64,000 bases of DNA from an uncultured Clostridia bacterium (GTDB taxonomy: Bacteria > Bacillota > Clostridia > Oscillospirales > Ruminococcaceae), in assembly GCA_947626755.1 (NCBI GenBank), contig CANQTP010000007.1, positions 1-64,000 on the forward strand, given 5' to 3'. Below the pieces are notes generated by a model. The model searched no databases and was not told the origin of the DNA. It worked only from the letters and a program-made list of their open reading frames with translations. Below are positions 19,777 through 53,633 of this stretch, in pieces; the stretch's first letter is position 1, and the number at the start of each line of letters is the position of its first letter. A program made the translations under genes and the position numbers.

Positions 19777-20316
19777 TTATCTTCTTTCCTTTCGTGACCT
19801 GTCTGCAAATCTCCAGAGTATATCCCTGTACTCGGGAGTGGCATAATTTATCCCCACCCGCGGCAGAGTTTCAATATCGGGACGGTATCCGTCGTCCATA
19901 ATGCATATCCGCGGATTTCCGAAAAGGGGCTGCCCGTTGAAGCTTCCGTCAACACCGAGTTTTTTCGTCAGCTTTCCCGGACCGTCATAAACTTCACAGG
20001 CGCGGAACAGCACTGCCTGAGGCATTCCCTCCGCGCCTGTGACAACATTCATAAGATGATGCATACCGTAACAAAGATAAACATACAAATAACCCGCTTT
20101 GCCGTATAATATCTCCGTTCTTTTCGTCCTGCCCTTACTTGCATGACAGGCAGTGTCCTCCTCGCCGCGGTAAGCTTCCGTTTCGGTTATCCGAAGCGAA
20201 GTCCTTACGCCGTCACTGTCCGTACAGACTATAAGCTTTCCCACCAGATCGGGAGCAGCTTCAAGGCAGTCCCTGCAAAAGAATTTCCTTGTCAGGACTT
20301 TGCTTTTCAAGATCAT
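19777..20316 (-). CDS. DNA-3-methyladenine glycosylase (AAG/MPG family)
   Basis: 179 aa; RITETEAYRGEEDTACHASKGRTKRTEILYGKAGYLYVYLCYGMHHLMNVVT. Confidence 0.95.
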   Translation of the reverse strand: MILKSKVLTRKFFCRDCLEAAPDLVGKLIVCTDSDGVRTSLRITETEAYRGEEDTACHASKGRTKRTEILYGKAGYLYVYLCYGMHHLMNVVTGAEGMPQAVLFRACEVYDGPGKLTKKLGVDGSFNGQPLFGNPRICIMDDGYRPDIETLPRVGINYATPEYRDILWRFADRSRKERR

Positions 20317-22529
20317 TCCTCCCTGTTGTCGGAGATGTATTCATTCATCTTTTCAAAAACAGCGTTTATATCCAACGGCTTGGAAAGATGAGCATTCATT
20401 CCCGCCTGACGGCTCCGCTCCTGATCCTCCTCAAAAGCGTTTGCAGTCATGGCAAATATAGGAATAGTCTTTGCATCGGGACGATCCATTCCGCGTATCT
20501 GCATTGATGCGCCGCAGCCGTCCAGATTAGGCATCTGTATATCCATAAGTATGAGATCGTAGTATCCCACTTCTGATCTTTCAAACATTTCCACAGCTTT
20601 TACACCGTCCTCGGCTTCTTCGATCTCCGCGCCTGTGGACATTCCCAGAAGTTCAATTGCTATCTCGCGGTTAAGTTCATTATCTTCCGCAAGAAGGATA
20701 TGTTTTCCGCGGAAATCGTATTCCTTGATATTTGCGGCAAGATCTTTTTCTTCCGCGTCCCTGCGGCTTACCGCAGCGGTCGTTTCCGTTATTCCGAAAG
20801 GAATTATCACCGAGAATGTGCTTCCCTCGCCGTAAACGCTTGTTACCGAAACGCTTCCGCCCATAAGCTCCGAGAAGCGTTTTACAATTGAAAGTCCAAG
20901 TCCCGTTCCGCCGTATTTATGGGCAGTTCCCGGATCTTCCTGCTCGAAGGATTCAAATATCTTTCCGAAATTTTCCTCTTTTATCCCTATGCCCGTATCT
21001 GCAACATCAAATCTGAACCATATGCGGTCGCTCTCATGACCGCCTTCACATACGGAAAATGTTATATTTCCGCCCGCAGAAGTAAATTTCAATGCATTTG
21101 AGATAAGGTTTGAAATTATCTGATTCAGCCTGAGCGCGTCTCCAAGAAGCGGAGTGTAAAGCTTTCCGCTTATGACGGTTTCAAAGCCGATGTCCTTCTT
21201 TTCAGCCTGTATCTGAAAAATATTGTCAAGATTTTCAATAAACTGACTGAAATCAAAAGGCTCGTTCCGTATCTCCATCTTTCCGCTTTCGATCTTTGAC
21301 ATATCCAGAACGTCATTGATAAGCGCAAGAAGATGTTTTGAAGAAAGCTCAACCTTTTTCAGGCAGTCCTCTACCCTTTCAGGCTCGTTGATGTGCTGTT
21401 TTGCAATGGTGCTCATGCCGATGATGCCGTTCATAGGAGTGCGTATCTCATGGCTCATTCTGCTGAGGAACTCGCTCTTGGCAGCGTTTGCGCGTTCTGC
21501 CTTTTCGCGGGCAATTCCTGCTTCTTCATTTGCGGCGGCAAGTTCGCGGGCGTGCCTGCTCATATTGAAAAGTATCACCGCAAACATCGTTCCGATGATA
21601 ACAAGCACTATTGCAAGCAGCAGCAAAGCATTCCTGTTAAGTTTCCAGATAAGCTCATTTACGCTCAGATCCACCGCGTCATAAGATGTTCCGATCATCA
21701 TATACCATTCGGTGTCTTTTAAAGGCGCATAGTATACGCACTGAAGTCCCTCGCTGTTGCGGTAGATGGTCATTCCCGACTTTCCCTCGGAAATATCGGT
21801 CTCTATCATATCAACGTTGTATCCGTCCTCAAACTCTGCGTAACGCTCCATCATGGAAAACATATTTGTACCATACGGAAGATCCTTGTCCGCAGAATTG
21901 TATATTACCATGCTTCCCTGCTTGGTGATTATGCTTGCATAGGTTTTTCCGCCGCTTCTGCTGAGAGCGAGCTGGTCGGAAAAATCATCGCTGGAAAATC
22001 CTGCTATAGCGGCAATAAAAGTCTTGTCGCCGAACTTTACAGGTTCTGTCAGAGTGCCTATAACTATCATATTCTCGCCGAAAAACGTTTCGTCATAGGA
22101 GATCTGATCGGACTGTCCGTCCAGAAGTTCCGCAAGGAAGCTTAGTTTTGTAACAGCGGAATATGCGCCGTCCTTGCTGTAATAAATGCCGTTCTCGTCA
22201 AGGAAAGCCATAAAATCAAAGCCGTTGTACTCTTCCATGCGCATGAAATAATCCGCCAGTGAATCGCTGTCATCAAGGTCGTTATCCGAAACGCAGTCAG
22301 CAGCGATCTTCAGGTTCGCAAAGTGGGCGGAAAGTCCCGTGTCGAAATGACTTGCGGTCTGCTCCATCATTTCGCGGAGATATACGCTGTTGATGCTTGC
22401 AACAAAATCCGCCGTAACGCCTCTTGCGGAAAAAATCATCCAGACAAAGCAAAGCAGGCACACCGAAATTATAACGGCGGTAAGCAGCACCATAAATCTC
22501 TTTGACGTTCTTTTTACGGATCGATCCAT
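20313..22529 (-). CDS. hybrid sensor histidine kinase (Cache-like sensor, HisKA, HATPase_c, REC)
   Basis: 738 aa; two TM segments flanking a roughly 250-aa extracytoplasmic domain; FLSRMSHEIRTPMNGIIGM; GGTGLGLSIVKRF; LILMDIQMPNLDG. No DNA-binding output domain. Confidence 0.94.
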   Translation of the reverse strand: MDRSVKRTSKRFMVLLTAVIISVCLLCFVWMIFSARGVTADFVASINSVYLREMMEQTASHFDTGLSAHFANLKIAADCVSDNDLDDSDSLADYFMRMEEYNGFDFMAFLDENGIYYSKDGAYSAVTKLSFLAELLDGQSDQISYDETFFGENMIVIGTLTEPVKFGDKTFIAAIAGFSSDDFSDQLALSRSGGKTYASIITKQGSMVIYNSADKDLPYGTNMFSMMERYAEFEDGYNVDMIETDISEGKSGMTIYRNSEGLQCVYYAPLKDTEWYMMIGTSYDAVDLSVNELIWKLNRNALLLLAIVLVIIGTMFAVILFNMSRHARELAAANEEAGIAREKAERANAAKSEFLSRMSHEIRTPMNGIIGMSTIAKQHINEPERVEDCLKKVELSSKHLLALINDVLDMSKIESGKMEIRNEPFDFSQFIENLDNIFQIQAEKKDIGFETVISGKLYTPLLGDALRLNQIISNLISNALKFTSAGGNITFSVCEGGHESDRIWFRFDVADTGIGIKEENFGKIFESFEQEDPGTAHKYGGTGLGLSIVKRFSELMGGSVSVTSVYGEGSTFSVIIPFGITETTAAVSRRDAEEKDLAANIKEYDFRGKHILLAEDNELNREIAIELLGMSTGAEIEEAEDGVKAVEMFERSEVGYYDLILMDIQMPNLDGCGASMQIRGMDRPDAKTIPIFAMTANAFEEDQERSRQAGMNAHLSKPLDINAVFEKMNEYISDNREE

Positions 22530-22530
22530 A

Positions 22531-24462
22531 TCAGCCGATCACCTTGATCCTTCCTTCAATATTTGCAGTGATAGCTTCTTTGTTATGCTCTTCAAAATAT
22601 TGTTTTAACGCCTCGGCATAGGTATAGTCAGTCTCCAAAACGAGCGTTACATTTTCGGCAATGGGAGCTTCATCGCTGTAAACGTTCAGCATTGTGAAAC
22701 CGTCGCCGTTATTGTTGAAATAGCCGTTTGCCCCTGCCATGTAGCTTGTGACGGCAATGGTATATTTTCCGTTTTCGTCAAGGGGAGATCCGTCAGGCAA
22801 AGTTACTTCCAGCAGCTCTGTAGAACCGTCCTCAGCAGGTTTTCTGAAAGAATAGCAAAGTCCCGAAACGTTAAGGAAACGTCCCGCAGGAATGCCGTTA
22901 TCCTGAACGAATCCCGAAATGCCGTTTGAAAGCATCTGACGGATAGTTTCCGCATCGACTTCAAGGACAACAAGCAGGTTATCGTACGGACAAACCACAT
23001 CAAGATCCGAACCGAAAACATTGCCTTTATAAAGGCTTCCTCTTATAGCACCGCCGTTTACGAATGCCATTTCCGCGCCCGTTGCTTCGCGAACAGCGTC
23101 CGAAACAAGGTTGCCGATAGCGGTCTCTTCCATTCTGGTATTGAAATTTTCGTAAAGCAGATCCTCCGCAACAACGCCGATCAGAGTCTGATCGTACTCG
23201 ATATTTTCATCGCCGTTTATGTAGTAATCGTCCACCTGAGCAAGCGCAGTTGAAATATCCGTGTCACCTCTAAGAACAGCGACCATTCTGTTCCCGAAAT
23301 ATCTTGTTACGTTTGAGGGGATCCTTATATTGTAGATAAACCCGCCCTTTGCGCAGTCCTCAATGCCTTCGGGGATCCTGTCGCTGTACGGAACAGGTTC
23401 TGCAAGATATGAATGCTCCGCGCTCGTGTCCTTTATAAATGCGGACTGTCCTTCCACGGTGGAAAGCAGGTCGAATATCCTTTCGCAGGCATCGAGCTTA
23501 TCGGCGTTTCCGGGATCGGAAAGCGCGGAATTGATGGCAAGATAGGAATCAGGCTGAGCGATTATCCAAGGCTGATTGCCGTTTTCGCTGAGGAAAGGTC
23601 TCATTTCGTATTCGTACTTGTCAGTAAGCTCCGAAAGCCTGTTAAAAAGGCTTGTATTTGAATATGTCACTAACAGAGTACCGTCAAGCATACGCTTTTC
23701 AACGGGGACTTCGTTGCCGTTCATTGCAAGTCCCGACAGGTTAAAATATCCCTTTTCGACCATTATGCTGTCCAGATCGAGACAGTGCTGCATTTTCTCA
23801 GAAAAAGACGATTTCTTTTCCTGCATATCTCTGCTCCATATTATTCCATCGGAAACGCCGAGGAAATCGGGGATCTGAATTCCCAGAAAATAGGAAGAAA
23901 TAGTGAGCCACGCAGAATTTATCCCGAAAAGCGAGCCGTCCTCGCCGATACCCACGCCAAGCCCCGCAGCTTTTTCAAGAAGCTTTGGAATGTCGGACGC
24001 CTTTTCGGGAAATTCCAGCCCGTTTTCTTCCATGATAGTCTTATTGAAAATGTATCCGTAATACTGTCCCGGAGTGGGAATAAAGCAGGATCTGCCGTCT
24101 ATCATAGTTGACTGGACAATGCCGGACTGGTACTTGTCCGTAAAGGGTTCTGCGGACAGATCAAGGACATATTCCCGCACTTCGCCCGAGGGCATGGAAG
24201 TAGTAACAATATCCATTCCGTGACCGTTTCTCAGGCGGCGTTCGCCTTCGCCGTCAATGGTGGCTTCCATATTGATCTCGATCTGAAGATCAATATCGGG
24301 ATATGTAGTTTCCACCAGCTTTTCAAACTCGGACAGCTCGTTCATATACATCATATTAACAACGATCCTGCCGCTGCTTTCATTGCTTTCCTTTGCACTG
24401 CCGCAGGCTGAAAGGCTTATCAGCACGGAAAGTGAAAGCAATGCTGCAAGAAATTTTTTCAT
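22531..24462 (-). CDS. lipoprotein: ABC-type extracellular solute-binding module fused to a 5'-nucleotidase C-terminal domain
   Basis: 643 aa; lipobox LSACGS; SBP-like region to about aa 420; then ETAIGNLVSDAVREATGAEMAFVNGGAIRG...DVVCPYDNLLVVLEVDAETIRQML...YFNNNGDGFTML, the 5_nucleotid_C signature. No metallophosphatase domain. Confidence 0.88.
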   Translation of the reverse strand: MKKFLAALLSLSVLISLSACGSAKESNESSGRIVVNMMYMNELSEFEKLVETTYPDIDLQIEINMEATIDGEGERRLRNGHGMDIVTTSMPSGEVREYVLDLSAEPFTDKYQSGIVQSTMIDGRSCFIPTPGQYYGYIFNKTIMEENGLEFPEKASDIPKLLEKAAGLGVGIGEDGSLFGINSAWLTISSYFLGIQIPDFLGVSDGIIWSRDMQEKKSSFSEKMQHCLDLDSIMVEKGYFNLSGLAMNGNEVPVEKRMLDGTLLVTYSNTSLFNRLSELTDKYEYEMRPFLSENGNQPWIIAQPDSYLAINSALSDPGNADKLDACERIFDLLSTVEGQSAFIKDTSAEHSYLAEPVPYSDRIPEGIEDCAKGGFIYNIRIPSNVTRYFGNRMVAVLRGDTDISTALAQVDDYYINGDENIEYDQTLIGVVAEDLLYENFNTRMEETAIGNLVSDAVREATGAEMAFVNGGAIRGSLYKGNVFGSDLDVVCPYDNLLVVLEVDAETIRQMLSNGISGFVQDNGIPAGRFLNVSGLCYSFRKPAEDGSTELLEVTLPDGSPLDENGKYTIAVTSYMAGANGYFNNNGDGFTMLNVYSDEAPIAENVTLVLETDYTYAEALKQYFEEHNKEAITANIEGRIKVIG

Positions 24463-24498: not shown

Positions 24499-24527
24499 AA
24501 TGTAACATATTTTGCTGTACTTGTCAA
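24499..24527 (-). promoter_or_regulatory. candidate sigma-A promoter for the SBP/kinase/repair operon
   Basis: On the minus strand: TTGACA, 17-nt spacer, TACATT, about 35 nt upstream of the 24462 start. Confidence 0.65.
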
Positions 24528-24587
24528 GAGTAAGCAAAAATTGTCGTTTTGCTATTGCTTTATGCGGCAAAAAATGATATAATATTT

Positions 24588-24776
24588 AGAGTTGAGAGTT
24601 AAGAGTGGAGAGTGGAGTTATTGACATAAACTGTCAGTATTCTTTTCTTCGTTTAATGCGGTGCGAGAATAAATTGTTAAGATTTTTGCTGTTTTTTTAA
24701 TTTGAGAGTACAAAGTTGAAATGTTATCTCAACTCTTAACTCTCAACTCTCAACTCTAAAAAAGCTCTCAACTCTA
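24588..24776. repeat. MITE-like element copy 1 with AGAGTTR heptamer inverted termini
   Basis: Left arm agagttgagagttaagagtggagagtgg; right arm ctcaactcttaactctcaactctcaactctaaaaaagctctcaactct, its inverted counterpart. Related to the copy at 53431-53633. Confidence 0.8.
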
Positions 24777-25556: not shown

Positions 25557-26543
25557 ATGGAGATTTTTATGGGATTCCCTGTTGTTTCACCTGCTATAAT
25601 GAAAGAGCTTATCGAAAAGATGAAGCCGATGAGATCAGATGAATTCTGCGATGTTATCGTCTCGCCTGCGGCTGTTGAATATTCTCCCAGACTTTGCCAT
25701 GAAGAAGTTGTAAGAACTCTGATAGAACAACAAGATATTCTTTCCTATAATATGACTAACCTTCCCGATGAGCAAAGCGAGCAATTTATCGAACAGAGCC
25801 GCAAAGTTACCGAAACTTACCCTACCGCACAGTATTACTGGCAGATCCGTACACTGTTCATGAATATCCTTCAGAACAGGACTATAAACTTTGAAAAAAG
25901 ATTCCTGCTGCTGAATTACGCCGTCAAGACCGTTCAGGGTTTTGTAGATAACGGACAGTACAATTTCGTGCCGAAATTCATTGACGATTTCACCAAGCCC
26001 GATGCGGACTACAAGCCTGTTATCGAATTTTTCAAGACGATACGTCCGAACCCGGGATATTCCCTTGCGGACGGCATTTCGCTGTTAAAATCCCTTAACA
26101 AGCCCAACGCTGCGTATAAAGAGGTCATTTCGGAAGTATACAAGAGCATAAACGTTACCGGTCCCGAAACGCTTAAAATGGCGGATCTCAGGAACTATCT
26201 CCTTAAAAGAAAGCAATACAGCGATCTCGTTTCCGGAGAAAAAACGGGATATATGGAAAATGTTGTAATAAGCTATGTGTGGTCATACTCTATCCCCCTT
26301 GCAAGAGCGGAATTCAACTATTGGGATCATTTCGTATTCTTCTGCTCACTTTACAACGCCATCAAAGTCATGATAACCTGCTACGCTCCCGACGGCGATG
26401 AAGAAAGATTTGTAAAGGCAATAACCGCTTTTGACACCGCTCTTCGCGCTTCGGACAAGGATCTTATGAGCAAGATCATCTACGCCGTAAGAAATGTGGG
26501 TCAGAACAACAACGGCGATATGGCAACTCTCACCCTCAGCTGA
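25557..26543 (+). CDS. uncharacterised protein
   Basis: 328-aa uninterrupted ORF, AT-rich upstream region, no opposing gene; no family recognised. A start at 25569 (MGFPVV) is possible. Confidence 0.75.
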   Translation: MEIFMGFPVVSPAIMKELIEKMKPMRSDEFCDVIVSPAAVEYSPRLCHEEVVRTLIEQQDILSYNMTNLPDEQSEQFIEQSRKVTETYPTAQYYWQIRTLFMNILQNRTINFEKRFLLLNYAVKTVQGFVDNGQYNFVPKFIDDFTKPDADYKPVIEFFKTIRPNPGYSLADGISLLKSLNKPNAAYKEVISEVYKSINVTGPETLKMADLRNYLLKRKQYSDLVSGEKTGYMENVVISYVWSYSIPLARAEFNYWDHFVFFCSLYNAIKVMITCYAPDGDEERFVKAITAFDTALRASDKDLMSKIIYAVRNVGQNNNGDMATLTLS

Positions 26544-53430: not shown

Positions 53431-53633
53431 TAGAGAGCTTCAATAAAGAGTTGAGAGTTGAAAGTTAAGAGTTGAGATATTGCAGTAACGCTTATATTTT
53501 CGGCTTCAATGCTTTTGTAGAAATAACTTTACTTTATCTCACGGCAGGTACAAAGCGAAAAATCACTGAATAAAGCCTGAAAGCGTGCAGGCTCAGCCTG
53601 CTCTTAACTCTCCACTCTTAACTCTCAACTCTA
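53431..53633. repeat. MITE-like element copy 2 with AGAGTTR heptamer inverted termini
   Basis: tagagagcttcaataaagagttgagagttgaaagttaagagttgagata ... ctcttaactctccactcttaactctcaactcta; termini match copy 1 (24588-24776) in reverse orientation. Confidence 0.8.

Follow-up and report, generated by a model that had tools for sequence, protein, structure and literature searches.

SBP-type proteins (SBP, solute-binding protein) act as co-receptors of histidine kinases in the LuxP–LuxQ and TorT–TorS systems, in which LuxQ and TorS are hybrid kinases. In Clostridia, a precedent for an SBP that works with a kinase is CuaD, which binds the ectodomain of the kinase CuaS and serves signalling rather than uptake (PMC10384115). 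A different group of ligand-binding proteins is represented by the nucleotidases UshA, CpdB and CD73. In the CD73–AMP complex, Phe417 and Phe500 contact the base, Asn390 and Asp506 contact the ribose, and Arg354 and Arg395 contact the phosphate (PMC8677862). The corresponding base clamp consists of Phe429/Phe498 in UshA and of Tyr440/Tyr544 in CpdB, and the C domain of CpdB, when isolated, shows no activity yet holds the substrate-binding site (PMC7922932). Among the open-licence papers of the open literature, neither a two-component system that senses extracellular nucleotides or nucleosides through a nucleotidase domain nor the combination of SBP, nucleotidase domain and kinase is described. 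To our knowledge, no bacterial two-component system uses a nucleotidase domain for extracellular nucleotides or nucleosides. The gene described here lies in a 64,000-nucleotide stretch of DNA from uncultured gut Clostridia (the window) and joins these two groups: its product is a lipoprotein with an SBP half followed by a 5_nucleotid_C (NTC) domain.

Domain architecture of the lipoprotein

The gene, its domains and a promoter-like site are as follows.

22531..24462, minus strand: SBP–NTC lipoprotein gene, 643 aa, coordinates including the stop codon (ORF, Pfam and 15-member alignment)
24403..24462, minus strand: signal peptide and lipobox, residues 1–20, with LSAC and lipidated Cys20 (sequence; Cys20 invariant in 15/15)
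23218..24375, minus strand: family-1 extracellular solute-binding half, residues 30–415 (profile against PDB 3quf; SBP_bac_8 in homologs)
22534..23163, minus strand: 5_nucleotid_C domain, residues 434–643 (PF02872, E=2.1e-26; PDB 2z1a, E=9.7e-28 with the family profile)
24499..24527, minus strand: promoter-like site TTGACA-17-TACATT with a TG extension, just upstream of the lipoprotein start (10/12 positions)

The original prediction, made from the sequence of the window, had described this ORF as a lipoprotein that fuses an SBP module to an orphan nucleotidase C-terminal domain; it gave the coordinates exactly but left the minus strand unstated. The fusion and the lipobox are both confirmed. 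The lipobox LSAC occupies residues 17–20, and C20 is invariant in the alignment. In Pfam, the window protein matches 5_nucleotid_C at residues 439–581 (E=2.1e-26, profile positions 11–153 of 158) and nothing else above threshold, with no SBP match from the single sequence; PF02872 is present in 15/15 homologs. The SBP half of the window sequence alone finds PDB 3quf at only E=5e-4, the family profile finds this family-1 SBP at E=4.7e-14 (positions 44–415), and SBP_bac_8 is matched by 11/15 homologs. Judged by sequence only, the lipoprotein thereby has both the family-1 fold and the lipoprotein signal of an ABC importer SBP.

As also predicted, the catalytic half is missing: no metallophosphatase model has a match in the window lipoprotein or in any of the 15 homologs, and the protein is therefore not a member of the 5'-nucleotidase family as an enzyme. 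Because no other 5_nucleotid_C gene was found in its own genome, no conventional nucleotidase of the UshA/CpdB/CD73 family accompanies it. AlphaFold2 modelling of the window lipoprotein and one homolog (two sequences, a shallow alignment) gave a pLDDT of 29 and the model was discarded, so that statements on the fold and the pocket geometry derive from sequence.

The promoter-like site is the best of 11 matches, a total within the range expected by chance (mean 7.8, sd 3.0). Farther upstream, an inverted-repeat element of heptamer arrays, (AGAGTTR)n, lies at 24585–24776 of the window and recurs at 53460–53626; the arms at 24585–24620 and 24725–24760 are 86% complementary. The sequence AGAGTTAAGAGTTGAGA has 169 matches in the genome (up to 1 mismatch), and its reversed control has 63. 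The matches to AGAGTTAAGAGTTGAGA often form pairs on opposite strands, 50–350 bp apart, and the element is MITE-like and dispersed genome-wide.

Conserved pairing with a dCache hybrid kinase

The next gene on the same strand encodes a membrane-bound sensor kinase.

20313..22529, minus strand: dCache hybrid histidine kinase, 738 aa, HisKA-HATPase_c-REC, no DNA-binding output (Pfam)
21699..22253, minus strand: extracellular dCache sensor, residues 93–277 (PF02743, E=1.1e-4, below the curated cut-off here)
20349..20699, minus strand: C-terminal REC, residues 611–727 (PF00072, E=1.7e-20)

The kinase gene starts 1 bp past the lipoprotein stop (junction AAGGTGATCGGCTGATATG), and a Shine–Dalgarno-like AAGGTG sits within the end of the lipoprotein gene; on the strength of this motif and the 1-bp junction, the two genes are probably translationally coupled. 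In NCBIfam, the kinase matches the LuxQ and TorS models best, over the kinase core and receiver only. Among the kinase homologs, HisKA, HATPase and REC are found in 16/16 and dCache_1 in 14/16 at E<=0.001 (Pfam). Genes for a 3-methyladenine DNA glycosylase and AddB follow the kinase, and a divergent formate/nitrite-transporter-like gene lies upstream of the lipoprotein. Between the latter and the methionyl-tRNA synthetase gene is an ORF of 328 aa (window 25557–26543) that has no Pfam match. The window locus has no linked response regulator with an output domain, the kinase itself ending in REC. No conserved target gene adjoins the pair, its neighbours varying from locus to locus, and a GntR-type regulator adjoins the kinase in two genomes only (G040 and G077).

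Homologs were sought among relatives and in samples of the order, class and phylum. A scan of genome contigs returned a single homolog. The searches of relatives and of these samples yielded 14 further full-length lipoproteins, 39–88% identical, and one contig-end fragment (L044), all in class Clostridia. At 88% identity, the nearest named relative is found in an uncultured Clostridia genome recovered from a metagenome whose name, 'Lapin', points to rabbit. In 15/15 full-length loci, a dCache-type hybrid kinase gene follows directly on the same strand at a gap of -20 to +1 bp, some neighbourhood genes being labelled through homology to the window kinase rather than by Pfam; the count of kinase neighbours is 16 when the contig-end fragment is included. 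The arrangement that marks three-component sensors of the CuaDSR and XylFII–LytS type, an SBP gene beside a membrane kinase gene, is thus present in all 15. Two CUT1-type permease queries found no permease homolog in the 64-kb window, in agreement with the prediction that no ABC permease lies beside the gene, and none near the 15 lipoprotein loci (fetched neighbourhoods of about 14–19 kb). The same queries do pick up permease genes next to a conventional SBP at another locus (L109).

In 151 related genomes, close matches to the kinase sensor (E<=1e-47) are confined to seven, G000, G018, G006, G125, G083, G040 and G077; these seven, and no others, also have the lipoprotein or its fragment. The next best sensor match is at E=2e-24. 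The distance matrices of the lipoprotein and the kinase sensor are correlated with r=0.94, and those of the lipoprotein and the kinase core less strongly, with r=0.86; shared descent accounts for part of these correlations. Pairing of the two proteins is strongly supported by these genomic data. Two genomes have a further hybrid kinase gene directly upstream of the lipoprotein gene (L104:10414-13659, L105:5342-8596), and the one in L104 carries fused SBP_bac_3 domains.

The putative nucleoside pocket and the paralog family

Contact positions were mapped onto the lipoprotein from CD73, UshA and CpdB via HMMER alignments. R443 matches UshA Arg379, which is taken as a ligand contact.

23134..23136, minus strand: R443, at the UshA Arg379 position (invariant in 15/15; alignment to UshA)
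23041..23058, minus strand: NGGAIR motif with N469 and R474, corresponding to CD73 N390 and R395 (invariant in 15/15; CD73 contacts from PMC8677862)
22978..22989, minus strand: PYDN motif with Y493, the first base-clamp aromatic, corresponding to UshA F429, CpdB Y440 and CD73 F417 (invariant in 15/15; PMC7922932)
22741..22743, minus strand: Y574, the second base-clamp aromatic, corresponding to UshA F498, CpdB Y544 and CD73 F500 (invariant in 15/15)
22696..22707, minus strand: GDGF motif with D587, the ribose-binding Asp, corresponding to CD73 D506 (invariant in 15/15)

All six nucleoside/phosphate-contact positions (R443, N469, R474, Y493, Y574 and D587) are invariant in 15/15. Given 50 invariant positions among the 210 of the NTC domain, the chance of six out of six is 1.4e-4. 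D587 is placed after an insertion of seven residues relative to 2z1a. The equivalents of CD73 R354 (E445, variable) and UshA R375 (N/D) are not conserved in the 15 homologs. NTC is also the most conserved extracellular domain, with a mean identity of 60% versus 47% for SBP and 43% for the kinase sensor. The invariant contact residues are the evidence on which NTC may be assigned nucleoside binding.

A wider family of paralogs consists of lipoproteins of about 600–680 aa that share the SBP half and whose C-terminal half is placed on 5_nucleotid_C by hhalign, with probabilities of 81, 93 and 98.6% in three groups (reversed controls, <0.3%) and Pfam E-values down to 5e-14. They usually adjoin hybrid kinases, with the paralog downstream of the kinase in L041 and L145, and one genome (G1165) that belongs to a different class of the phylum has the arrangement as well; at least two paralogs (L087, L088) have no adjacent kinase. 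In a scan of 18 proteins, which included three fragments or non-members, NGGx(I/V)R was found in none, PYxN in two and GDGF in one. By these motifs the paralog NTC is degenerate and devoid of nucleoside signatures. Since the motif-less paralogs share the architecture and the kinase neighbours, the SBP–NTC–kinase design extends beyond the nucleoside-competent branch, and NTC may therefore have another role. Two different SBP–NTC lipoproteins are encoded in tandem in L039, L043, L083 and L107, adjoining one hybrid kinase in the first three, which suggests hetero-co-receptors.

Proposed sensing mechanism, alternatives and known systems

The presence of an SBP half and an orphan C domain, with neither a catalytic domain nor an ABC permease, indicates a receptor and not an enzyme or a part of a transporter. 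The original prediction had reached the same view of a non-catalytic receptor, but had missed both the dCache kinase partner, present in 15/15, and the paralogs with a degenerate domain. It had named as counter-evidence the lack of an SBP fold, a hidden metallophosphatase or a constant ABC permease pair; an SBP fold was recognised by sequence, and neither a hidden metallophosphatase nor, with the two CUT1-type queries at the 15 loci, a permease was found. Because a sensor kinase gene directly follows the lipoprotein gene in every case, the lipoprotein is probably the outside co-receptor of that kinase. The reading that we favour, with moderate confidence, is that of an extracellular ligand-binding co-receptor of the downstream hybrid kinase, which takes a nucleoside-type ligand in NTC and docks on dCache. 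The protein would be tethered outside the membrane via Cys20. NTC, having no catalytic partner, would bind a nucleoside-bearing ligand between Y493 and Y574, with N469 and D587 contacting the ribose and R443 and R474 the phosphate; candidate ligands are a nucleoside, a nucleotide, or a molecule of the dinucleotide, NAD or nucleotide-sugar type. The SBP half would bind a second small molecule, perhaps a sugar, or else another portion of the nucleoside-bearing ligand. Docking of the loaded lipoprotein on the dCache domain would then switch kinase activity in one direction or the other, and phosphate would pass from His to REC, to an unlinked Hpt protein and to a response regulator with a presumed output function.

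The nearest paralog of the kinase in the genome (L168, contig C2 of G000) shares an operon (L168:5804-10929) with two REC-HD_5 (HD-GYP-like) regulators and an Hpt-like protein (E=9e-4, below the cut-off); a genus member (L171) and L170 have similar arrangements. Operons of this type are possibly a shared phosphorelay hub, which would be a hint on the output of the window kinase. Hpt proteins of this genome are encoded on C2 near position 113440 and, as a separate stand-alone protein, at C8:63422-63787.

The favoured co-receptor has to be weighed against a variant, unlikely in our judgement but deserving attention, in which signal binding, probably of a sugar, is confined to the SBP half while NTC is a docking module or spacer on dCache that keeps its nucleoside residues for the fold. 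This would suit the paralogs beside hybrid kinases, which have lost NGGxIR, PYxN and GDGF (0, 2 and 1 of 18) yet retain NTC, as well as the high conservation of NTC relative to SBP and the kinase sensor. However, six contacts drawn from three different enzymes are invariant in the branch of the window protein, whereas a mere spacer needs none of them, and the survival of the fold in paralogs without nucleoside motifs argues that these residues are not required for it.

Two further readings were rejected on neighbourhood and domain evidence. The family-1, sugar-import type of the SBP half would fit a conventional SBP of an ABC transporter that has an unusual C-terminal extension and works with an unlinked permease in nucleoside or sugar uptake, but this is very improbable with a permease near 0/15 homologs (two CUT1-type queries) and a kinase gene next in 15/15. 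Slighter still is the likelihood that the lipoprotein is catalytic, for example in nucleotide hydrolysis by an unrecognised active site, or that it is a decaying nucleotidase: it does carry the substrate-holding domain of the enzyme family, but the metallophosphatase is found in 0/15 homologs and SBP fills the N-terminal half, the C domain of CpdB is inactive in isolation (PMC7922932), and decay is at odds with an intact gene conserved at 39–88% identity.

The co-receptor reading has a more ambitious form, which we hold to be attractive but doubtful: NTC would be an extracellular nucleotide sensor, SBP would read a second ligand, and one hybrid kinase would serve gut Clostridia as a coincidence detector. 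If NTC binds such ligands, gut Clostridia would own a purinergic-like outside sensor, and the gene pair offers a direct test of nucleotide sensing with one soluble protein. The degenerate-domain paralogs would in that case illustrate how one sensor architecture is re-tuned to other signals.

Each of the known systems resembles the window pair in part. CuaD–CuaS–CuaR of Ruminiclostridium cellulolyticum likewise has a clostridial family-1 SBP gene adjoining a kinase gene and acts in signalling, not uptake, but CuaD, a two-lobed SBP, has no nucleotidase domain, is encoded with the response regulator CuaR and controls the cuaABC transporter genes, whereas the window partner is a dCache hybrid kinase that ends in REC and has no linked regulator. 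XylFII–LytS shares the use of an SBP-type protein as histidine kinase co-receptor; XylFII, LuxP and TorT differ in having other SBP folds and no 5_nucleotid_C domain, and LuxQ and TorS have other sensor domains than the window kinase. UshA, CpdB and CD73 share 5_nucleotid_C with its aromatic base clamp (Tyr-Tyr as in CpdB) and the NGGxxR and GDG motifs, but their metallophosphatase is replaced by SBP in the lipoprotein, the operon partner of which is a kinase. The paralogs (L038–L041, L083, L084, L145) have the same SBP-then-NTC order, mostly next to hybrid kinases, but differ in their degenerate NTC without nucleoside motifs and in the sensor sequences of their kinases. The lipoprotein–kinase pair is best read as a three-component-type variant of the known SBP-plus-kinase sensors (CuaDSR, XylFII–LytS), in which the substrate-binding NTC domain seems to have been taken over for sensing.
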